Source of the DNA: Nitratiruptor sp. YY09-18
Lineage (GTDB): Bacteria > Campylobacterota > Campylobacteria > Campylobacterales > Nitratiruptoraceae
Reading direction: 5' to 3'
DNA length: 64,000 nt
NCBI RefSeq assembly: GCF_016593235.1
Contig: NZ_AP023065.1
Span: 434,001 to 498,000 of the forward strand
Positions 43,113 through 61,484 of the stretch are shown here, piece by piece. The notes beneath the pieces were generated by a model, which was given only the letters and a program-made list of their open reading frames with translations, did no database searches and was not told the DNA's origin. The position numbers and the translations under genes were made by a program. How positions within the stretch are numbered: the first letter of the stretch is position 1; each line of letters opens with the position of its first letter.

Positions 43113-44507
43113 TTAGTAACTTTCTTCTTGGATATCCTCTTCCCTCTCGCCTCGTTTGCGTGGAGAGAGGATGATGGGTGTACCTTCAAGATCAAAATTT
43201 TCTCGCAAAGTATTGGCCAAATAGCGCTTATAACTAAAGTGTAGACCCTCTGGCCTATTCATAATAAGCGCAATTTTTGGAGGCTTCGTATCATACTGCG
43301 TTGCATATAAAATTTTGACAGGTTTTCCTTTGTATGAAGGGATCTGATGGCGAATTTGTGCCTCTTTGATGACTTTGTTGAGTTGTGCGGTAGGGATCCA
43401 AGTAGTGTAGTTTTTGTATACTTTGATGATAAGATCATAGAGCTTATCGACCCGTTTTCTTGTCTTTGCACTCAAAGTAATAATTGGTGCATAGCTTAAA
43501 AACTTGAAGCGATCTCTTACCTCTTTGACAGCCTCTTTATAATCTTTATTGGCTATATCCCATTTATTCAAAACTATGATGCAAGCAAGTTTATACTTAT
43601 CAATATACCCAGCGATTCTCTCATCCTGTTCTGTGATACCTTCGCTCGCATCAAGTACAAGAAGCGCCACATCCGCACGCTCTAGCATCTTTTGTGTACG
43701 ATTGAGCGCATATTTTTCGATTCCTACAATTTTACTGCGGCGTCTAATTCCTGCAGTATCGATGAAGGTGATGACTTTGCCATCATAGAGGGTGCTCTCA
43801 TCAACTGTATCGATGGTAGTTCCTGCCACATCACTCACAATTGAGCGCTCCTCTTTGAGCAGGGCATTGAGCAGTGAACTTTTGCCAACATTGACGCGTC
43901 CAAGTATTGCTACGCGTATTTCGTTATCTTCCTCTTCTTGTGGTTTCTTCTCCCCCTCATTGATAGCAAGCAACTCATCAAAATCCGGCTCTTCATCAAT
44001 TTCTAGAGCTATTTTTTCATCTTTTGGAAGTCTCTTTTCTATCCAACTCAGCAAAGCTCTTGTTTTGCGGTTGTGGCTTACGGAGATGGGGAAAATCTCT
44101 TGGGTACCAAACTCATAGAAGTTCCAAGCATTCTCCTCCTCCTTGTCATTATCTATTTTATTGACAACAAGGGTGATATCTTTGCCAAGTTTTTGCAAAG
44201 AGCGAAAGATCTTTTTATCCTCTTCATCGGGAAGTTTCTTTCCATCTACCATATAGAGGATAATATCTGCATCCTTTGCAGCCTCGAGGCTTTTGTTTTT
44301 GACCTGCTCAAAGAGCTCATCTCTATCCTCTAATCCTCCGGTATCAATGAGCTCTGCCTCTTTCTCGCCAATTTGGACGATACGCCTTTTTATATCACGA
44401 GTAGTGCCTGCTTGTTCACTGACAATTGCATCTCTTTGCTTGAGCAGGCGATTAAACAGTGAACTTTTTCCAACGTTTGGTTTTCCAATTATTGCTATTT
44501 TTTTCAT
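43113..44507 (-). CDS. der: GTPase Der (EngA)
   Basis: A 464-residue protein with two tandem GTPase domains. The first P-loop is GKPNVGKSS (about 7-15), and the second is GRVNVGKSS near residue 203, each followed by DTGG or DTAG and NKxD motifs. A C-terminal KH-like domain follows. It is needed for 50S ribosome assembly. The start overlaps the mscS-family stop by 4 bases. Confidence 0.95.
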   Translation of the reverse strand: MKKIAIIGKPNVGKSSLFNRLLKQRDAIVSEQAGTTRDIKRRIVQIGEKEAELIDTGGLEDRDELFEQVKNKSLEAAKDADIILYMVDGKKLPDEEDKKIFRSLQKLGKDITLVVNKIDNDKEEENAWNFYEFGTQEIFPISVSHNRKTRALLSWIEKRLPKDEKIALEIDEEPDFDELLAINEGEKKPQEEEDNEIRVAILGRVNVGKSSLLNALLKEERSIVSDVAGTTIDTVDESTLYDGKVITFIDTAGIRRRSKIVGIEKYALNRTQKMLERADVALLVLDASEGITEQDERIAGYIDKYKLACIIVLNKWDIANKDYKEAVKEVRDRFKFLSYAPIITLSAKTRKRVDKLYDLIIKVYKNYTTWIPTAQLNKVIKEAQIRHQIPSYKGKPVKILYATQYDTKPPKIALIMNRPEGLHFSYKRYLANTLRENFDLEGTPIILSPRKRGEREEDIQEESY

Positions 44508-46438
44508 TTTTCGGCTATTTTCTCTATATAGATTGATTCACTTGGAAATGCAAAATCTGAACCGTTGCGATGGACAATTTCGATGATTTTGAGATTGACA
44601 TCTTCACGAATTTCAAGATATTTTGCCCACTCGGCGGTATTTGTAAAGCAGTAGATAAAAATACTTAAACTACTATCTTCAAACTCATCAAAATTGACCA
44701 GCAGTGTTGCCTTTTTGGCTATTCCAGGATGGGATTGTAGCATATTTCTCATCTCTGTGAGAATATTTTGCATCTGCTCTTGCGTCGTACCATAGATGAG
44801 GCCTATGCGCATCTTGATACGGCGAACATTGCGACGAGAGAAGTTTTCGATAGGGTTGTTTGCAATTATCTGGTTTGGAACTGTCACAAGAGACTTTTCA
44901 AAGGTGCGCACCTTTGTGGTGCGTAGGCCAATCTCTTCTACAGTTCCCTCTACATCGCCCACTTTTATCCAGTCATCAAGTTTGAGTGCACGATCGGCTA
45001 AGATACTGAGTCCTCCAAAGAGGTTTGCTGCAGTATCTTTGGCTGCAAGAGCAAATGCCAAACCACCAAGTCCTAGTGAAGCGACGAATGCACTCACATT
45101 GATATCCCACTCTTGCAAGATTGACACAAGACCTATAGCAAAGATGAAGATTTTGAGAGTTTTAATAAAAAATGAGCCAATTTCACGGTAAAGTTCACGT
45201 CCAAACTTTTTCGCAAAATTGTAAATTGTCTCATCTAAAATATTGACTGCATTGTAAAAAAGCCAGAAGATATCAAAAATTACGAGACTTTTGAGAATTT
45301 TGTCAAAGATATCGTTATGGATTCCTGCTATGAGGAGTGCAAAATAGAGACCAAGTATAATAAACGAAAATTTCAAAGGTCCTTCAAGAATATCTACCAA
45401 GCGATCATCAAAATTTGATTTGGTCATCTGTGTGAATTTACGGAGAGAATGGACAATAAAAAAGGCAAAAATACGCCGAAAAACCAAAAAGATAAGAAAA
45501 ATCCCCAAAGCTTCGGCAAATTTATAAAGAGGAATTCCAATGACGCTGTTGTTGTTTAAAAATGCAATGAGTGCATTTTTGGTTTCGATAAGTTTAGCCT
45601 GCCAGTTGCCAATTTTTTTGTTGATCGCGTAGTAGAGTGTTGCCTCATATGCTTTGGCGAGATTTTGTCTAAATTTATGCAAAAACTCTACAATATCTTT
45701 GGCTTTATTAATGCTTTCTTGCGATCTTTTTTGGAGTGCAGCAAAAAAATCGTAGAGCTTGATAGATAAAATTTTATCAACATATCTCTCGGCTCTATTT
45801 TGGTAGTAAGCAATAGATTTCTCGATTTGTCTTATTTTGCTCTCTTGCCCCAAAATGACATAGCGCTCCTTTTCTATCTGGAGTTTTTTGATCTTGCGCT
45901 CTACATTTTGCAGCTGTGAGAGGGTTTTGCTTATAGATTCAGCGGATTTAGTAAACGAGATTTTGTTAAGCTTTATCAAAAGAGTATCAAGCCATTTGGT
46001 ATAGTTTTTTTGAATCTGCTCTACAAACTTTTGATCAAACTCCTTCAAGCGATAGTAAAAAGCGTATTCAAGCGTTGCAGTGATACTATCTTCATCTTGA
46101 TTCTCTTGAATGTCACTGAGTTGCTCGTTGAGATCTTCTATCTCTTGCTGCTTTTCATAACTTTGTGCCAGGAAGTTGTTGATTTTTTTAAAGGTCTGTA
46201 TCAAATCTTGCGCATTTTTTATCTGCAATTCATCATTGGTGATAGTTGGAGGCTGCTGTTTTGCAATAGAGACAATTTTTTGGATAAGTGATTTTTGCAA
46301 AGAGTAGTTGGGGGATGAACTATTGAGTTCATTTGCGAAATTTTGTAAAAGGGTAAGGTTGCTCTCTTTAACAAGAGTCATGTTAATATCAGCTAAAAGC
46401 ATAGAGGTAAGAAGGAGAAAAAGAGCAAAGATTTGCAT
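44504..46438 (-). CDS. MscS-family mechanosensitive channel with long N-terminal region
   Basis: A 644-residue protein. A signal peptide (about 1-17, ending LADI) precedes a long helical/coiled-coil periplasmic region (about 40-270), then about four to five helices and a C-terminal MscS core with LGGLAFALAAKDTAANLFGG, LKLDDWIKVGDVEGTVEEIG and VPNQIIANNPIENFSRR. It is larger than classic MscS (~286) and resembles MscK/YbdG-like forms in domain layout. It should release solutes on osmotic downshock. Confidence 0.88.
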   Translation of the reverse strand: MQIFALFLLLTSMLLADINMTLVKESNLTLLQNFANELNSSSPNYSLQKSLIQKIVSIAKQQPPTITNDELQIKNAQDLIQTFKKINNFLAQSYEKQQEIEDLNEQLSDIQENQDEDSITATLEYAFYYRLKEFDQKFVEQIQKNYTKWLDTLLIKLNKISFTKSAESISKTLSQLQNVERKIKKLQIEKERYVILGQESKIRQIEKSIAYYQNRAERYVDKILSIKLYDFFAALQKRSQESINKAKDIVEFLHKFRQNLAKAYEATLYYAINKKIGNWQAKLIETKNALIAFLNNNSVIGIPLYKFAEALGIFLIFLVFRRIFAFFIVHSLRKFTQMTKSNFDDRLVDILEGPLKFSFIILGLYFALLIAGIHNDIFDKILKSLVIFDIFWLFYNAVNILDETIYNFAKKFGRELYREIGSFFIKTLKIFIFAIGLVSILQEWDINVSAFVASLGLGGLAFALAAKDTAANLFGGLSILADRALKLDDWIKVGDVEGTVEEIGLRTTKVRTFEKSLVTVPNQIIANNPIENFSRRNVRRIKMRIGLIYGTTQEQMQNILTEMRNMLQSHPGIAKKATLLVNFDEFEDSSLSIFIYCFTNTAEWAKYLEIREDVNLKIIEIVHRNGSDFAFPSESIYIEKIAEK

Positions 46439-52633: not shown

Positions 52634-54414
52634 ACGAAAAACTCTTTCGAGTGGGAATACGATCTCCCCTCGATCTTGCATTGCTTGCTCCACACAAATA
52701 CTACGATTTTCGCATCAAAAGATCAATCGAGCCGCAAATGGTACTGGATGTCCAGATCAAAGAGATTCAAACTCTTGCAAAGCTGCAAAAGCGTATAGCA
52801 TATGCTCACAATATCGGACGCGAAGTGGAGCTACTCTTTTTCCATACGAAAAAATTTCATGAGTACGCTTTTGGAGTTGGGGAGCGTCTTTTTATCTATG
52901 GCAAACTGCAGTTTCAGTATGGAAAGATCCAGATCGTACAACCGCAAAAAGTCGCAAACTACAAAATAGACCAAATCTTTCCCTCATATAAAATCCCGAT
53001 TCGTGGAGATATCTTTGCAAGCCTCAAAAAGGAGTATCTCACAGCCAAAGCTCTTGCCCATGAGGGATTGCCACAAGATATAGTGGAGAGTTTGCTTAAA
53101 ATCCACTATCCAGATGAGGAGTTTTACAAAGAGTATCAAAAAGAGGGAGGGATCTTTGGAAGATATTTTGAAGCTTTGAAATTTGCTGAAGCCTATCGCT
53201 ATATACGAGCTTTGCGTCACAAGCGTATAAATAGGCCTGCACAGTGTGTGATCGATGCAAAGTATCAAGATTTTGTCGCTTCACTCCCTTTTACTCTCAC
53301 AAATGATCAGCAAAAGGTTATCGATGAAATTCGCAGAGATTTAGGTAAAGATGTGGCAGCAAGGAGAGTTGTAGTAGGTGATGTTGGCAGTGGCAAATCT
53401 GTTGTCATGTTTGCTACTGCATATATGGCAAAGCGCTCTATCCTCATGGCACCTACAAGTGTCCTAGCACGTCAGCTCTATGAAGAAGCCAAAAGACTCA
53501 TGCCAAAAAATTTCAAGATAGCTTTGGTGAGTGCGCAAGAGAATGTAGAAAATCTAGAAGAGTATGATTTCATTATTGGTACACACGCGCTGCTCTATCG
53601 CAAATTGCCAAAAGTTTGTGTGGTGATGGTAGATGAGCAGCATAGATTTGGAACCAACCAGCGTCAAAAGCTCAAAAAGCTTGTAGAAAGTGGCGATCAA
53701 AGCCCTCACTATTTTCAGTTTAGTGCTACACCAATTCCGCGCACACAGGCTATGATGGAGAGTGCGCTTGTGGATTATAGCTTCATTCAAGAGGTACCAT
53801 TCAAAAAAGATATTACTACTAAGGTTGTAGGCAAAGAGGATTTTCGCTTGCTTCTAGCTCATATCAAAAGGGAAATCTCCCAAGACCATCAAGTCCTTAT
53901 CGTCTATCCATTAGTTGAAGAGAGTGCAACCTATGGGTATAAATCACTTGAAGAGGCCAAGAATTTTTGGATGCGATATTTTGATGGAGTCTATGTGACA
54001 CATGGTAAGGACAAAGCAAAAGAGGAGGCATTGGCTGCGTTTGCGAAAAATGGTAATATCTTGCTTGCAACAACTGTCATAGAAGTGGGCATAAGTTTGC
54101 CAAAACTCTCAACTATTGTGATAGTAGGAGCCGAAAATCTCGGCCTTGCTACACTCCACCAGCTACGAGGAAGAGTCTCACGCACAGGGCTCAAAGGCTA
54201 CTGCTTTTTATATACAAACAACAAAGAAAATGAGAGGCTCCAAAAATTTAGCAAAATTACAAGTGGTTTTGCAATAGCAGAGCTCGATTTAGCATTTCGC
54301 AAAAGTGGCGATATTGTCAGTGGCAAAGAGCAGAGTGGCAAAACTTTTAAGTATCTGAGTTTAGCTGAAGATAAAAAGATCATTGAGAGGGTCAAAGCCC
54401 TCCTTGATCAATAA
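52630..54414 (+). CDS. recG: ATP-dependent DNA helicase RecG
   Basis: A 594-residue superfamily 2 helicase: Walker A VVGDVGSGKSVVM near residue 255, Walker B DEQHRFG, motif III FSATPIPRT, and motif VI LRGRVSRTGLKGYCFL. The N-terminal wedge domain is shorter than in E. coli RecG (693), as in other Campylobacterota. It remodels stalled forks and Holliday junctions. It converges on hpf with a 7-base overlap. Confidence 0.93.
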   Translation: MNEKLFRVGIRSPLDLALLAPHKYYDFRIKRSIEPQMVLDVQIKEIQTLAKLQKRIAYAHNIGREVELLFFHTKKFHEYAFGVGERLFIYGKLQFQYGKIQIVQPQKVANYKIDQIFPSYKIPIRGDIFASLKKEYLTAKALAHEGLPQDIVESLLKIHYPDEEFYKEYQKEGGIFGRYFEALKFAEAYRYIRALRHKRINRPAQCVIDAKYQDFVASLPFTLTNDQQKVIDEIRRDLGKDVAARRVVVGDVGSGKSVVMFATAYMAKRSILMAPTSVLARQLYEEAKRLMPKNFKIALVSAQENVENLEEYDFIIGTHALLYRKLPKVCVVMVDEQHRFGTNQRQKLKKLVESGDQSPHYFQFSATPIPRTQAMMESALVDYSFIQEVPFKKDITTKVVGKEDFRLLLAHIKREISQDHQVLIVYPLVEESATYGYKSLEEAKNFWMRYFDGVYVTHGKDKAKEEALAAFAKNGNILLATTVIEVGISLPKLSTIVIVGAENLGLATLHQLRGRVSRTGLKGYCFLYTNNKENERLQKFSKITSGFAIAELDLAFRKSGDIVSGKEQSGKTFKYLSLAEDKKIIERVKALLDQ

Positions 54415-54950
54415 AGGCCAAATTTTCCATCTGTTCTTTTGTAAAGAACACGTGTTTTGCCGCTTTTATCTTCAAAAACGATGAAGTATTTATTGGAGTT
54501 TTTGAGGATTTCTACCGCCTCTTCTACGCTAATAGGTTTATCTACATCAAAAGGAGTAGGTACCACTTCTTCAGAGTAATTAAGAGCCTCTTGGATCTCC
54601 TCTTCAAGCAAAGGTGCTGCCATGATCTCTTCAAGAGAAATATTTTTATGATTTTTTATCTTGTCAGCGTAGCGGCGAAGGACTTTTTTGGCGCGTGCAA
54701 GAGCAAGATCGATCGCAGCATAGACATCTTTATCTTTTTGCGTTATGACAACATTACCTTTTTTGGCTACATGGATATCAAATTCAAAAGTAAAGCCTTT
54801 TTTGCCATTACGCTCATCTGCTGAAACTGTTGCGTTGATACCAGTGATATCAAGGCCTAGTTTCATAAGAGAATGCGCTGCATCTTGAATATACTCTTTG
54901 ATCGGTTCAGTAAGATCAAAATTCTTGCCATAAATATGCAAGTAATCCAT
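54408..54950 (-). CDS. hpf: Ribosome hibernation promoting factor (long HPF)
   Basis: A 180-residue long-form HPF: an N-terminal S30AE/YfiA domain (about 1-100, LHIYGKNFDLTEPIKEYI, VYAAIDLALARAKKVLRRY) and a C-terminal dimerisation domain (about 125-180, VEEAVEILKNSNKYFIVFEDK). It pairs ribosomes into inactive 100S particles. The ATG at 54950 fits RBS AAAGG better than the ATG at 54956. Confidence 0.93.
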   Translation of the reverse strand: MDYLHIYGKNFDLTEPIKEYIQDAAHSLMKLGLDITGINATVSADERNGKKGFTFEFDIHVAKKGNVVITQKDKDVYAAIDLALARAKKVLRRYADKIKNHKNISLEEIMAAPLLEEEIQEALNYSEEVVPTPFDVDKPISVEEAVEILKNSNKYFIVFEDKSGKTRVLYKRTDGKFGLY

Positions 54951-54999
54951 GGTCATCCTTTATATAGTTTTTTGTAATTGTAGCAAGAGTTGGCTTAAA

Positions 55000-55428
55000 C
55001 TAGAGTTTTTGGATGGTGCGACGAAAATAGGAGATGGGTGTAGAGTCTTGGATGATATTTGGTTTGAGAGAGACGCGGGTATCAATGATTGCTGTGCCGT
55101 TGCTCTCATTTGTTACTATGTTGTTGGCAAAAATATTGCAGTTCGCTGGTAATCCATTACCGATATAATAGATTGTTATATTGATATCATATGTGTTTTG
55201 GAAGCTGATATTGATATTGTTCAGGCAACTTGTAGCAAAGTTATGGCCTTGAGCTGCAAGGATGGCATACTCTGTAGCACTTTTGGCTAAAGCCTCTTCT
55301 TGCTCTATGAAATAGGTATCAGTTGTGTTTTTTGTTGCAGATGTCAAAGAGCTTATTGTCAAAGCTAAAATAACACCTACCAACATTATAAAAATAATTG
55401 CAGTTAGCATTGATATAGCTCTTCTCAA
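55000..55428 (-). CDS. Prepilin-like protein (minor pilin)
   Basis: A 142-residue protein with a short basic start (LRRA) and a hydrophobic helix AISMLTAIIFIMLVGVILAL, like a type IV pilin/pseudopilin helix but without the usual Phe-Thr-Leu-Ile-Glu cleavage context. The remaining domain has two D/E-X-N-X-S/T sequons (DINIT, ESNGT). The TTG at 55428 overlaps the upstream stop and is favoured over 55449. It is last in a four-gene operon. Confidence 0.75.
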   Translation of the reverse strand: MRRAISMLTAIIFIMLVGVILALTISSLTSATKNTTDTYFIEQEEALAKSATEYAILAAQGHNFATSCLNNINISFQNTYDINITIYYIGNGLPANCNIFANNIVTNESNGTAIIDTRVSLKPNIIQDSTPISYFRRTIQKL

Positions 55429-56306
55429 AATACCACCTTCTTTCCGCATATTTCAGCTGAAAAACTATCTGATATCTTCTTTTTGGTACATAGTTGCAGT
55501 TCTATTGATTTGTCGACTTTTCTAAAGCGAAAACTAGAGATATGAGGAACAAGTAATGCATGATCACCATTGAGATAGTTTTCACCCTTCCATGGACGGT
55601 AGTTGTAGTAAAGAGTCAAGTTGTAATCATTGCTGCTATTTTGCACAGGAACTAACGCGTATGCGCTATAGGCAAGATAGTAGTGCTCTGCTATTGTCTT
55701 GGCATTTGTATTTTCAAACTGTAACGTAGTGTTGTTTAATCTATGCACTGGATGAACTGCTGGATATGGAGAAGTATAAAAGGCTGATATAGGATCATCA
55801 ATGTAGACCCCCTTGAAAATTACAGCCGCTCCATTATTGCTATTATCAATATTGACGGGACGATTACCAGAAAATGCAAGTATGATATTTTTGGCAAAGT
55901 CGAGTCTGCTACCTGGTGTGACAAGTTTACTCTTATCACTTGCTTGGATGTCGCAAAAGCCGCTATATCCTGGAATAGAGTATCCCCCAGCGACATCACC
56001 GCGCAAAGCTTCGTGTGCATATCCAATCCATTCCAAAACGTCATAATTTGGAGGAAGAGTTTCTAGTGTTATAGTATTTGATGGGTTTGAAGATTGTCTA
56101 GCTATTGCAGAGTCTAAGACGCGGTAGCTTAATCTTCTTGCAATTTGTTCAAGCGCTAATTGGATCCTTTGTGATGTGTCTTTTGCAGCATCAGAAATTA
56201 TCTTGTTTTCATAAACCTTTACTAGGATATCTGATCCAATAAGTGCTAATATGCCCATAACGACTATGACAAAAACTAGCTCAATTAATGTAAAAGCTCT
56301 TCTCAT
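55425..56306 (-). CDS. Prepilin with N-terminal methylation motif (GspJ/PilW-like)
   Basis: A 293-residue protein with a textbook type IV prepilin start: MRRA followed by FTLIELVFVIVVMGILALIG (cleavage before Phe5, Glu at +5). The large C-terminal domain is beta-rich with one DYNLT sequon. Size suggests a minor pilin of the PilW/GspJ type rather than the major pilin. It is coupled by 4-base overlaps on both sides. Confidence 0.88.
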   Translation of the reverse strand: MRRAFTLIELVFVIVVMGILALIGSDILVKVYENKIISDAAKDTSQRIQLALEQIARRLSYRVLDSAIARQSSNPSNTITLETLPPNYDVLEWIGYAHEALRGDVAGGYSIPGYSGFCDIQASDKSKLVTPGSRLDFAKNIILAFSGNRPVNIDNSNNGAAVIFKGVYIDDPISAFYTSPYPAVHPVHRLNNTTLQFENTNAKTIAEHYYLAYSAYALVPVQNSSNDYNLTLYYNYRPWKGENYLNGDHALLVPHISSFRFRKVDKSIELQLCTKKKISDSFSAEICGKKVVF

Positions 56307-56965
56307 CTCACATCTCTAGTTAAAATTTTGGGATAGCCAATATTGCATGTAAATGCTCTCATTGCCAAAAACTGCTTATTGTTGGCATCTGTGGTATTAA
56401 GATCGATCATTTTGATATTTGTAGATGCAGTAGTGGGAGTTGGATTGATAGATATTGTCAAAGATGTGCCACTATAGCTTGCAGTATCACTTACATAGTA
56501 GATTTTTTGAAAGATTTTCATATCGATTTTATAGCCACTACTGCTTTTAGAAAATGAATCTATGTTGCCATTAAAATCATCTATATCATCTTTTTTGGCC
56601 TCACCACTCTCAAGCCCCATTGTATTTGAAGCATATGTAGTATTGGGGAAAAATATTCGCCTATCTGTTACATTAAAATTACCTTTGCGCACAACTGCTC
56701 CGGGATTCATTCGATTTAGTTCACTATCACCATTAGTTACATCGAGAATATGTGGGATATCATCTGATGATTTGAGTGAATTATCATCCCATTGATACGT
56801 CTCAATTGTTCCTAATGTACGATAGGATTGGAATATTCCTTCGCTTTTTAGAATCTCTTGCAGATTTGATGAAGTCTGCTCCATAATTCCTGGAATTGCA
56901 AGCATAACGATACTTATGATAACTATCGCAAAAATAAGCTCTATCATCCCAAAAGCGTTTCTCAC
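56303..56965 (-). CDS. Prepilin-like minor pilin
   Basis: A 220-residue protein starting MRNAFGMIELIFAIVIISIV, which keeps the prepilin pattern with cleavage expected after Ala4 and Glu at +5. The C-terminal domain is not recognised; it includes one DLNTT sequon. The ATG overlaps the stop of the 1261-residue gene (ATGA). Confidence 0.85.
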   Translation of the reverse strand: MRNAFGMIELIFAIVIISIVMLAIPGIMEQTSSNLQEILKSEGIFQSYRTLGTIETYQWDDNSLKSSDDIPHILDVTNGDSELNRMNPGAVVRKGNFNVTDRRIFFPNTTYASNTMGLESGEAKKDDIDDFNGNIDSFSKSSSGYKIDMKIFQKIYYVSDTASYSGTSLTISINPTPTTASTNIKMIDLNTTDANNKQFLAMRAFTCNIGYPKILTRDVR

Positions 56966-59900
56966 CAGTTAATCCTATAGCGGTTAATTTTACTCTGATT
57001 GCTTTCATTTCCTTGGATGATGGCTTTTCCAGTCCCTTTCCAGTTACCTGGATTGATAAATTTGAAATGTAGTGGCACTGTTGCAGCATTTGGATCATAT
57101 TTGTTATAGACTAGCCAAGAGCTGACATTGACATCAGTTGTTACTATAAATGGAAAGCTTGCTCTATAATAGCGAGCTTGGAGTGTATGGCTTCCGTTAT
57201 TAAGACTATTATTGATAATAGCAATATTTCCTACTCTGCTATGAAAGATGTCTCCACCCTTATATTTCATTTTTTGAATTGTACCTAGATTTTGATTAGT
57301 ATGGAGATTGTTGATGATCCAATTAGGATCTTGTGGATCTTGTGACATGCCTGCAAAGAGTGGGAAATTTGCTGCTAAGGATGTACCAGTTGCTGTTGCT
57401 TGCAAAGGATTGTATATCTCATAATATGTAGTGATATTACCATCATTTCCTTGGATGATATTTTCTTCTATATCTCCCGTGCGAAGGCGAGCATATACAA
57501 AGGTGACATTCTTATCATTAACTCTATTGAAATCAAATCCATGAACAACTGTAGTATTCTCTTCAGTAGAGATATTAAAATCGTTTTTCGCTACTACAAA
57601 AGGAATATCTGCAATGTTGACTTTTCTTTTAATATTAAATTGCAAAGGAATTGTTGCTACACTTCCGGTAGTGAAATTGGATTCATTGATATCTATTATG
57701 ATATTTGGACTTTGCAAGACTCCAGTTGAAGTACCGCGTATAGTATAGTAATTTTGGTCTTCAAAAAACTGTATCCTATTTGAAAGGTTAGACCATCCAA
57801 GATTTTTATTGTTGTTGAGCGTTATGGTTGTGTTAATATCTTTTGCATAGCAAGATTTTACGTAGTTTTGTGCTGGTGTATTATCATCTAAAAGTGCTGT
57901 AATAGATATATTCATAGTAGCATGCATTCTAGGATCATCAGAGAGATATGTAAATTTGTCATTTGTATCTGCATTTTTCACTGTGATCGTATGAGAATAC
58001 TCTTTTGGATGAAATTCCAATGTTTTTGATGCATGAGCCATACATCCTATGCGACCAAGGCTATCTGGAGTATTTGTCCAACTGTATGGGATACAGTCAT
58101 AGACTATATTTCCACTATGATCACGCTTCGCTTGATCGACTCGCGTCCAGTCATTGTCTGTGATATTGAGTTCAATTTTACCTACATCATTAAAAGTATA
58201 GTTATTATCTATCGCTATAGAACCACTAAAAACAACAGGAGATACCTGCAAATTATCAGTTTTTTTGGTTGCTGGATTTGTACAGCCTGGTCGATCAAGG
58301 AGAGTAGAGGTGATATTTGTATCGCTATTGGATGCAGTAAAAGTCGTGTTATAGTCAGCAATAAGATTATCATGGATATCTGAGGCGTTGATATCGAGAC
58401 GATAACTTCTTTTTCCAATCAAGAGGCTCTCATTAACGTCAAGTGTATAAGTCGCAGGACGAATAGCAAAGCTATCGATTGAACACGAATATATTACTTT
58501 ATCAGAAGGAGCATTTGCCACAAGGCATTCGATACAACCATATCCGTTATTGGAATTTGTATTAGCACTACATGGATTACCAGCAGCATTGCTAAAACAT
58601 ATATCGATGCTTTGTCCAAAAATTTTTCTCAATTTTCCTTCTGGATCGTCAGCTATACATTGTGGTATACCTTTAAGGGTATTGCTCATTGCATCTGGAT
58701 TATTACAATGTACACTCGCATCTGCCATAAGATCGACCCAGTGGAAAAATCTAGCACGAAATCGCGCACTGCGAATAGCTTTTGAAGCGTTAATATCTAA
58801 GCTCTGCTGTTTATGGTTGTTAAAATCTACTATGTAATGTGGTTTTTTTAGGATATTAACATAAGGATGCGTACGGCAGCTGTTTCCTATACCAGCATTG
58901 ACTGCATCAAGAATAGCTACCTTTTGTGAATTTTTAAGCTGAACATATTGTGATGTATTATTGAGAGCATTTTGGAGTGATAGGGCTTTAATTGAAAAAG
59001 CTCTATTTGGGATTTGGGTGTAGAGTGCATTTTGCGAGCTATTGGCATCAAAAATGATACTATTTGCATTGAAGTTTTTATTAGCAAACGTTATTGTATC
59101 GGTATCTGGATTGTAAGCAATGATAGTGTTGTTAAACTCTCTACATTTTGGCAATATGGTATCTATAGTAAAGTTTTCGCCTGCAATTTCAAACCTATAT
59201 TTAGTATTGTATAGCATGCTAATCTCTGCATTTTTTAGCACCGTAAATTTGTAATCTATTTCTGCTTGATGATTTGGGTTGATTGTGTAAGGTTCAAAAA
59301 TTGGTGGTTCACCCTCACCAAGCGGTCCAATAGTTAAATTTGATTCTACAATCGTATTATTCTCTTCTCGAGCATCAAAGATAACAGACACACCATTGTG
59401 AGAACTATTATCATCGATATGTACTATTTGATTAAAATCTACATCTTTTACACTAGTAGAGTTTGGAATATATTCAGTGAGATTAACATCAAAAATTTTT
59501 ATGATTCTTACAGATTGTGCATCGTGATTATCATCATTGCGAAGAGTGATCTTTGATGTGATAGGGTCACCTACCCTCACAATTGAGGATTCGTTAATCT
59601 CTTCATTGTTTTTGTCATAGAAAGTTTCAAGAAAACAGATTTTTGGTATATACATTTGCACGGAAAATGCTACCATACTTGGAAAGTATGCATCAGCGTT
59701 TGTTCCTAATGTTATAGTAGATTCATGTTCATTCACTCCAATAACTCGTGGATGTGATGTGTTATTATCTTTTCCAACTTCAATCGAGTGTATATCTATA
59801 CCATTATTATTATTGAGTCTAGGATAGCGGTCTATACTCTCACTTATAGAAGAGTTGAAAAAGTTGTCTTCTTCATTAAGGTGATTCCCATTAGATGTTT

Positions 59901-60747
59901 GTTCGAAAAGCTCTTGATTATTGAGCTTGAAGTAGTCACCCGTTAGTCCCTTGTCACCCTCACCAGCAAAAACAAAGAGATTTGCATTGATAGGTTCATA
60001 TTCTGGTGTATAAAAGCCTGATACATTAATGGTGACTGTGTTCCAATTATAGACACGAGTATAGCCACGATATACTGAGAGGTTTTTCAATGTTTCTGAA
60101 TCATCTTTGTAAATGACGACAATTGTCCAAGCGCCGTAGTTACCAAGTCCATCGTAAAAATCATATGTTCTACCCTCTCTACATGGTATATTACCAACTA
60201 TGTAGTTACCTGTTCCACCATTTTTAATAATATCTGTTATGTCTGTAAAAGCTGCATAAGTGTAACCAATGCGAGTACCATACCAATTCCACCAATCTAA
60301 ATAATTTACATAGTTTGCGTAGATTGTATGTTCTATTCCATTGGGATCTCGCAAAATGATAGGCTGGGATAATTCATTAACAAAACTTTGTTCTGGATAG
60401 CCTCTACCATAATTATGCATATATCCTTGCCAATAGATGGCAGCCCATAATATCTGAGCGTTATTTGAAAGACGTAAAGTTGCTTGTGATGAATTAAAAG
60501 TATTCGAGTCATTGTCTATATCTATATAAGACATATACATTTCGGCATTTGTTCGTCTTCCGCTTGTGTCTACACACTGATTACGACGATTTTTTGTACA
60601 AAGGACAGTATTACCAAAAATTTTTATATTACCTTTGACGAGTTTTGTTTCATCAGGATTTATTTTTTCAAAATCATGAATATTATGTTCAAAAGTGATA
60701 GCAAAACTTATAGATAATATTGTCAAAAATAAAAAAACTATCCTCAC
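56962..60747 (-). CDS. Large secreted surface protein (MshQ/DUF11-like), rich in N-glycosylation sequons
   Basis: A 1261-residue protein with a signal peptide (1-16, ending SFA). The first ~370 residues resemble surface domains of DUF3344/DUF11 type (ILWAAIYWQGYM, YGAWTIVVIYKD); residues about 380-520 look like a DUF11-type beta domain. The part around 795-860 (FAIRPATYTLDV, ASDIHDNLIADYNTTFTA) resembles MshQ/DUF6701 proteins linked to pili. It is very rich in Asn and has about 24 D/E-X-N-X-S/T sequons. No membrane anchor or sorting signal is seen at the C-terminus. It is followed by three prepilin genes and preceded by proC, all with 4-base overlaps. Likely a pilus-associated adhesin; this role is inferred. 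Confidence 0.8.
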   Translation of the reverse strand: MRIVFLFLTILSISFAITFEHNIHDFEKINPDETKLVKGNIKIFGNTVLCTKNRRNQCVDTSGRRTNAEMYMSYIDIDNDSNTFNSSQATLRLSNNAQILWAAIYWQGYMHNYGRGYPEQSFVNELSQPIILRDPNGIEHTIYANYVNYLDWWNWYGTRIGYTYAAFTDITDIIKNGGTGNYIVGNIPCREGRTYDFYDGLGNYGAWTIVVIYKDDSETLKNLSVYRGYTRVYNWNTVTINVSGFYTPEYEPINANLFVFAGEGDKGLTGDYFKLNNQELFEQTSNGNHLNEEDNFFNSSISESIDRYPRLNNNNGIDIHSIEVGKDNNTSHPRVIGVNEHESTITLGTNADAYFPSMVAFSVQMYIPKICFLETFYDKNNEEINESSIVRVGDPITSKITLRNDDNHDAQSVRIIKIFDVNLTEYIPNSTSVKDVDFNQIVHIDDNSSHNGVSVIFDAREENNTIVESNLTIGPLGEGEPPIFEPYTINPNHQAEIDYKFTVLKNAEISMLYNTKYRFEIAGENFTIDTILPKCREFNNTIIAYNPDTDTITFANKNFNANSIIFDANSSQNALYTQIPNRAFSIKALSLQNALNNTSQYVQLKNSQKVAILDAVNAGIGNSCRTHPYVNILKKPHYIVDFNNHKQQSLDINASKAIRSARFRARFFHWVDLMADASVHCNNPDAMSNTLKGIPQCIADDPEGKLRKIFGQSIDICFSNAAGNPCSANTNSNNGYGCIECLVANAPSDKVIYSCSIDSFAIRPATYTLDVNESLLIGKRSYRLDINASDIHDNLIADYNTTFTASNSDTNITSTLLDRPGCTNPATKKTDNLQVSPVVFSGSIAIDNNYTFNDVGKIELNITDNDWTRVDQAKRDHSGNIVYDCIPYSWTNTPDSLGRIGCMAHASKTLEFHPKEYSHTITVKNADTNDKFTYLSDDPRMHATMNISITALLDDNTPAQNYVKSCYAKDINTTITLNNNKNLGWSNLSNRIQFFEDQNYYTIRGTSTGVLQSPNIIIDINESNFTTGSVATIPLQFNIKRKVNIADIPFVVAKNDFNISTEENTTVVHGFDFNRVNDKNVTFVYARLRTGDIEENIIQGNDGNITTYYEIYNPLQATATGTSLAANFPLFAGMSQDPQDPNWIINNLHTNQNLGTIQKMKYKGGDIFHSRVGNIAIINNSLNNGSHTLQARYYRASFPFIVTTDVNVSSWLVYNKYDPNAATVPLHFKFINPGNWKGTGKAIIQGNESNQSKINRYRINW

Positions 60748-61484
60748 TTCTTCGTCCTTTCATATGCTTTCATTACCGCTTCCATAAAAGTATTTCTTGC
60801 TCCATTTTCTTCAAGGGCTTTGATACCGGCAGCTGTAGTGCCTGCTGGACTCATGACTCTATCTTTGATAATGGCAGGATGCTCATCTGTAAGATGCGAA
60901 AAGCTAAAAAAGAGCCCTTTGACAAACTCTTGTGCAATATCTCTCTTCATCCCTGCAGCTACTGCTCCATCAGTCATAGCTTCAGCCACAAGAGCTAAAA
61001 ATGCTGGTCCACTTCCGGCAACTGCTGTGGCGATATCGAGATCCTTTTCGCTCTCTACCCAGATGACTCTTCCTATCGCTTGTAAAAGGTTTACAGCTTC
61101 CTCTTTCATAGCTATATCACCTGTAACTGCAGTGGTAGAAGCACCTTTGAATGCAGCGATATTTGGCATAGCTCTTATGTAGTGCTCTGCATTGATAGTA
61201 TGGAGTTTCTCTATCGATACTCCAGCCAAGATAGAGATGAGTAGCTCTGCCTGCCCCTTTAAACATTTGCTCACTTCATCTAGTGCATGGGGCTTTATGG
61301 CCAAAATCACTCTTTTATTTTCTATATCGAACCCATCAATATGAGCAGTTTTGACTGGATAGAGATAGCGTATCTCTTCAAGTTTTTTCTCATCTCTTCC
61401 AACAACTTCTATCTTTATATCTTTCTCAATGAGTCTTGTGATAATTGCTTTTGCCATCTCTCCATATCCTATTATCGTCACCAT
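60744..61484 (-). CDS. proC: Pyrroline-5-carboxylate reductase
   Basis: A 246-residue protein with the NAD(P) loop IIGYGEMAKAI, the substrate-binding VAGSGPAFLALVAEAMTDGAV and PAGTTAAGIKALEENG. It makes the last step of proline synthesis. Its stop overlaps the start of the large surface-protein gene, so the pilus operon may depend on the proC promoter. Confidence 0.94.
   Translation of the reverse strand: MVTIIGYGEMAKAIITRLIEKDIKIEVVGRDEKKLEEIRYLYPVKTAHIDGFDIENKRVILAIKPHALDEVSKCLKGQAELLISILAGVSIEKLHTINAEHYIRAMPNIAAFKGASTTAVTGDIAMKEEAVNLLQAIGRVIWVESEKDLDIATAVAGSGPAFLALVAEAMTDGAVAAGMKRDIAQEFVKGLFFSFSHLTDEHPAIIKDRVMSPAGTTAAGIKALEENGARNTFMEAVMKAYERTKK

Follow-up and report, generated by a model that had tools for sequence, protein, structure and literature searches.

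Why does a secreted protein of Nitratiruptor sp. YY09-18, a deep-sea vent bacterium related to Campylobacter, carry two dozen copies of D/E-X-N-X-S/T (X, any residue except proline), the extended N-glycosylation sequon of the oligosaccharyltransferase (OST) PglB? The question is raised by an open reading frame (ORF) in a 64,000-nucleotide stretch of contig NZ_AP023065.1 (positions 434,001 to 498,000), the whole of which is here called the window. The ORF (56962-60747, minus strand, GTG start) encodes a 1,261-amino-acid (aa) protein, referred to below as Q. A first-pass annotation of the window had described Q as a heavily glycosylated, mucin-like fiber or adhesin. Our analysis supports this description in part: an excess of exactly the PglB-type sequon, the presence of pglB, secretion, and a link to pilus genes were borne out, while the mucin-like build and the uniqueness of the protein did not hold. 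We predict that Q is probably an MshQ-type adhesin, of a family found in Campylobacterales, that belongs to a type IV pilus (i.e., of the mannose-sensitive hemagglutinin [MSHA] type), with a stalk that is N-glycosylated by PglB and a head that is bare.

RESULTS

Sequon content of Q and of the genome

Q contains exactly 24 sequons, while 2.26 are expected from whole-protein shuffling (observed-to-expected ratio [O/E], 10.7), and none of 5,000 such shuffles attained 24. Shuffling within local windows of 10 to 100 aa gave means of 2.3 to 2.8 sequons (maximum, 11), and dipeptide-preserving shuffling gave a mean of 2.3 (maximum, 10). The sequon excess is real and far beyond chance, and the first-pass estimate (i.e., about 24 sequons, where composition predicts two or three) proved accurate. 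Related motifs stayed near or below expectation: the control D/E-X-N-X-A/V, set beforehand as a possible refutation, occurred once (1.65 expected), the reversed motif was absent (2.3 expected), and K/R-X-N-X-S/T occurred once (1.8 expected). The idea that the DxNxS pattern marks calcium-binding loops was ruled out because D-x-D-x-S/T and D-x-N-x-D/N were at background levels.

We sampled 858 kb (49%) of the genome, corresponding to 834 crude ORFs. Just two of the sampled proteins had more than 4 sequons, namely, Q and a second protein with 26 (L107:9537-14303); the next had 4. Sequon O/E was 0.85 for cytoplasmic proteins and 2.7 for exported proteins other than Q (about 2.0 when the second protein is also left out). 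The enrichment is therefore not restricted to one surface protein, since the second protein and dozens of homologues share it. More sequon-rich proteins may be encoded in the half that was not sampled. Within the window, the next richest product after Q is a 644-aa protein (44504-46438); it has 4 sequons (0.5 expected) and a signal-like segment at its N terminus.

Motif specificity and evolution among homologues

A profile built from 23 homologues and run on 397 Campylobacterales genomes detected homologues of Q in 243 of them; an alignment-based scan with 6 rows found 4 loci only. The excess recurs in the family, as shown by the comparison with homologues that the first-pass annotation had suggested: in 54 homologue regions from pglB-positive genomes, the summed sequon O/E was 8.7, while that of D/E-X-N-X-A/V/G and the reversed motif was 0.74. 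Among 49 combinations of residue classes at positions -2 and +2 of Asn, pooled over 51 homologues, D/E with S/T alone was enriched (8.25-fold; the next combination, 1.27-fold). In the same 51 homologues, replacing the central Asn by another residue gave 0.5- to 1.2-fold, and moving D/E or S/T by one position gave at most 1.8-fold. Proline at -1 or +1 gave 0.6- and 1.2-fold, respectively. D was favored over E (3.0 versus a background of 1.95) and T over S (1.37 versus 1.01), in agreement with the known preferences of Campylobacter jejuni PglB.

Where the Asn of a sequon was kept between homologues, D/E was also kept in 80% and S/T in 78% of cases; where it was lost, these values fell to 26% and 30%. 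Incomplete motifs showed far weaker coupled retention. On this alignment evidence, sequons are gained and lost as whole units. Their positions partly turn over among homologues while their numbers stay high, and the most conserved sequon, N1250 near the C terminus, is present in 21 of the 23 homologues. Motif specificity, coupled retention, and turnover at a high number of sites together form the mark that selection for glycosylation by PglB would leave. Three members of the family have only 3 or 4 sequons (L139 in G383, L150 in G396, and L133 in G246), and two of these three come from pglB-positive genomes.

A bare head and a crowded stalk

Sequons are dense along the stalk and scarce in the N-terminal head. 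All 24 lie within residues 327 to 1252 of Q, and residues 1 to 326 hold none; across homologues, the sequon O/E is about 2 in the head (residues 1 to 320) and 4 to 16 in regions of the stalk. AlphaFold2 (AF2) models of both halves of Q (mean predicted local distance difference test [pLDDT] score, 86) are beta-rich and multidomain, with beta-sandwich folds. Foldseek matched them with generic immunoglobulin (Ig)-like adhesin, pilin, integrin, and complement folds at low TM-scores, which indicate fold class only, and a sequence search of the PDB returned no relative of Q. DUF11, to which Q shows a subthreshold similarity (Table 1), is matched by relatives. Since both halves are confidently predicted as beta-sandwiches and lack a disordered Ser/Thr-rich repeat region, the term "mucin-like" would be apt by analogy only.

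Trp is the last residue in 49 of 51 homologue regions, and the tail preceding it is often basic and often carries a conserved sequon. In Q, this tail was modeled with low confidence in isolation, which is consistent with folding onto a partner; the near-invariant Trp tail may be a signal by which Q docks to the minor-pilin complex described below.

Relationship to MshQ and to an MSHA operon

The 26-sequon protein (G000:C1:about 1494537-1499303; 1,588 aa) carries LamG_3 and H_lectin domains and a C-terminal DUF6701 domain, and its gene heads an MSHA-type pilus operon separate from the Q locus. This operon encodes an MshL-like secretin (TIGR02519, just below the cutoff), an MshEN ATPase (MshEN and T2SSE, above the cutoff), pilin-like proteins, and an AAA protein at the MshM position. 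The C-terminal half of Q aligned with this paralogue in hhalign (Prob 100; E = 2e-46; 493 columns), and homologues of Q matched DUF6701 (PF20419) directly (G009, 6.6e-9; G007, 1.1e-6; G010, 1.5e-5; G036, 2.7e-23). By profile comparison and through these homologues, the C-terminal half of Q probably groups with DUF6701, which is the conserved part of MshQ. PF20419 had no match in any control genome, and a plasmid search for gammaproteobacterial MshQ was empty. Pfam found no LamG or lectin-type domain in the head of Q, while the paralogue has both; Q is filed as MshQ-like rather than as MshQ because of this, and we treated such a domain as common in MshQ but not as defining it.

A conserved minor-pilin cassette

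Three pilin-like genes follow Q in the order D-O-P, as in the MSHA operon (Table 1), with 29% identity between the D proteins of the two loci. The start of D overlaps the stop codon of Q, and the start codon of Q in turn overlaps the end of proC by 4 nucleotides. Of 58 loci with a Q homologue, at least 43 have pilin-like genes after it. The usual arrangement is D-O-P, with overlapping stop and start codons, and hpf often comes next. The earlier suggestion of a pilus link is thus supported both by the minor pilins that adjoin Q and by the paralogue inside an MSHA-type operon. Secretion, also proposed earlier, agrees with a Sec-type signal peptide that we read by eye.

The ribosome hibernation factor gene (54408-54956) is conserved directly after the Q-D-O-P cassette across families. 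In one family (f16; L042, L135, and L146), homologues stand in tandem without detectable pilin neighbors, and the long copies have 11 to 29 sequons.

TABLE 1 Features of the Q locus, with positions in the window
Feature	Position	Strand	Basis
Q, MshQ-like pilus-associated protein	56962..60747	-	ORF/translation; 24 PglB sequons; C-terminal DUF6701 link
Sec-type signal peptide, Q residues 1-16	60700..60747	-	MRIVFLFLTILSISFA then ITFEH; read by eye
N-terminal beta-rich head, Q residues 17-320	59788..60699	-	AF2 model; 0 sequons, few in homologues
Stalk, predicted chain of Ig-like beta domains, Q residues 327-1252	56992..59769	-	Holds 24/24 sequons
DUF11-type repeat-like stretch, Q residues 388-434	59446..59586	-	NCBIfam TIGR01451, E 0.028, subthreshold
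DUF6701/MshQ-related region, Q residues ~572-1220	57088..59034	-	hhalign to paralogue; PF20419 in close homologues
C-terminal tail, Q residues 1236-1261	56965..57042	-	Most conserved sequon (N1250); last Trp
D, putative minor pilin, MshD-like position	56303..56965	-	N_methyl subthreshold, E 4e-4; synteny
O, putative minor pilin, MshO-like position	55425..56306	-	N_methyl above cutoff; synteny
P, small pilin-like/PilX-like protein, MshP-like position	55000..55449	-	Synteny; no family above cutoff
proC, upstream neighbor of Q	60744..61484	-	PF14748
Ribosome hibernation promoting factor gene (hpf), downstream neighbor	54408..54956	-	PF02482/PF16321; conserved synteny

PglB enzymes

The first-pass annotation had tied its proposal to the presence of pglB, and the genome has two STT3/PglB genes (C1:586046 and C1:851065; the paralogues are at L080:6046-8166 and L084:10954-13092), both with the WWDYG motif. 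One product (PglB1) can be aligned over its entire length with Campylobacter lari PglB (393 bits). It retains, in "ihRisgs", the counterpart of R331, an Arg that we take to read the acidic residue at -2. The other (PglB2) has Tyr at this position and, for this reason, may read a different, -2-independent sequon. R331 is discussed in PMC4894442, and a PglB of Nitratiruptor tergarcus is among the OSTs identified from deep-sea vents (PMC6025236).

Of 293 genomes with pglB (PF02516), 229 contain a member of the Q family, as do 14 of the 104 genomes without it (odds ratio, 23, a value inflated by shared ancestry). Two further PglB searches of the pglB-negative genomes that have the family found no enzyme, except for a C-terminal fragment in G084. 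A candidate truncated PglB in G235, obtained by a WWDYG pattern search, was rejected because the hit was an ExbB/TolQ-like frame, as judged by eye.

DISCUSSION

If Q is an MshQ-type adhesin, it would be exported by the Sec pathway, and many of its stalk sequons would be N-glycosylated in the periplasm, probably by PglB1, because this is the enzyme that keeps the Arg reading the acidic -2 residue. The protein would then be joined to the adjacent D-O-P minor-pilin complex and carried out on a pilus built by the MSHA machinery encoded elsewhere. The bare N-terminal head would be free to bind a surface or a partner, and the glycans that sheathe the Ig-like stalk would make it stiff and soluble and shield it against heat and proteolysis.

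Several observations weigh against this model. The Q locus has no gene for pilus machinery, a secretin, or an ATPase, and the MSHA machinery lies elsewhere in the genome; Q would sit in a satellite minor-pilin cassette and would have to use that machinery. Q scores below the DUF6701 cutoff (no PF20419 match at E of ≤1), and it is connected to the family via profile comparison and relatives. Among the 24 sequon Asn residues, about 11 lie in predicted strands or a helix rather than in loops, so some sites may be unoccupied. Sequon counts are low in some pglB-positive genomes (3 in G383 and 4 in G396). Conversely, homologues from genomes without detectable pglB keep many sequons (median O/E, 7.1 versus 9.3 with pglB; P = 0.16), in a sample of 13 homologue regions from 11 genomes, mostly fragmented metagenome-assembled ones. 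The most complete of these cases are mixed (3 sequons in G246, 10 in G060, and 28 in G235), and the sequon decay expected without pglB was not demonstrated. Missing contigs or a recent loss of pglB are possible in these genomes.

The same observations can be read in other ways. The pglB-negative homologues, which are not clearly poorer in sequons, and the many Asn residues at strand ends are what one would expect if the pattern were structural or historical (e.g., a preference for beta turns) and the sites were not or mostly not glycosylated. We consider this very improbable, since a turn preference would not need exactly D/E at -2 and S/T at +2, the exclusion of proline at both X positions, and variants at background levels; it would also leave the coupled retention of the motif residues and the strong association of the family with pglB unexplained, although relatedness inflates the latter. 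That exported proteins are sequon-rich in general, and that Q is merely long and Asn-rich, gains something from the enrichment of the exported proteins besides Q, but is scarcely credible given that the O/E of Q already accounts for composition, that the sampled half of the genome drops to 4 sequons directly after the two MshQ-like proteins, and that the head of Q itself is unenriched.

Other readings accept the glycans. Q might be a hyper-N-glycosylated fiber or matrix protein, secreted or anchored at the surface, whose neighboring pilins form a secretion pseudopilus rather than carry a tip adhesin. The missing secretin and ATPase genes, the head without the LamG and lectin domains of the paralogue, and the tandem f16 homologues would suit this arrangement. 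It is nonetheless unlikely, because in most homologue loci the gene overlaps start to stop with three minor pilins whose order is conserved, because the paralogue lies in the MSHA operon, and because a type II secretion system normally needs pseudopilins of its own, among them a major pilin of the GspG type, none of which was recognized at the Q locus. A somewhat better, though still doubtful, case can be made for glycans that act mainly in folding, in export quality, or in helping Q to withstand heat and proteases rather than in adhesion geometry, with Q possibly initiating pilus assembly rather than adhering. In Vibrio cholerae, where MshQ is called a putative adhesin of MSHA pili, its loss reduces surface MSHA, yet the pili still retract (PMC7096442), and MshQ is counted among the MSHA components of unknown function (PMC9815625); the near-invariant C-terminal Trp likewise hints that a contact with the pilin complex has been conserved. 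On its own, this explanation does not account for a spared head and a crowded stalk.

It has long been puzzling that bacteria retain a general N-glycosylation pathway, since the majority of known PglB substrates are modified at a single site or a few, and the effects are modest. Dozens of sequons selected as indivisible units on the stalk alone would give the pathway a concrete role. It seems to us an evenly balanced proposition that Q represents a widespread kind of Campylobacterales pilus adhesin with an N-glycan-sheathed stalk and a bare head, that such proteins are the main substrates maintaining the PglB pathway in free-living species, and that they form an N-linked counterpart of mucin and serine-rich-repeat stalks. 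MshQ would thereby gain a testable architecture, and the Q family could provide natural multisite acceptors for bacterial glycoengineering.

The kinds of protein and enzyme involved are known, while their combination appears to be undescribed in the searchable literature: as the first-pass annotation had supposed, we met no hyper-N-glycosylated pilus protein of Campylobacterota in the literature searched. Like Q, V. cholerae MshQ (PF20419) is a large, secreted, multidomain putative adhesin of the MSHA system with a DUF6701-type C terminus (in Q, a probable one, by profile and relatives) and MshD/O/P-like minor pilins (PMC7096442). Q differs in its head, which lacks LamG and lectin domains, in standing first in the gene order, and in a locus apart from the MSHA machinery. 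The stalk has about 10 to 37 sequons in most homologues of Q, counted here in Campylobacterota only. The PglB systems of Campylobacter and Helicobacter share with the present case the extended sequon, the periplasmic route, and an OST with WWDYG and an R331 equivalent, and Helicobacter pullorum likewise has two PglBs (PMC6025236). Unlike the known PglB substrates, Q and its paralogue concentrate 24 to 26 sequons in one region of one protein. DUF11/Ig-like surface fibers resemble Q in the subthreshold DUF11 repeat and the Ig-like folds but not in the probable DUF6701-type C terminus or the pilin neighbors. Finally, in the serine-rich-repeat adhesins of streptococci and in mucins, a glycan-dense stalk lifts a bare binding head. 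The architecture proposed for Q is the same, with predicted N- instead of O-glycans, folded Ig-like domains, and no sequence relation.

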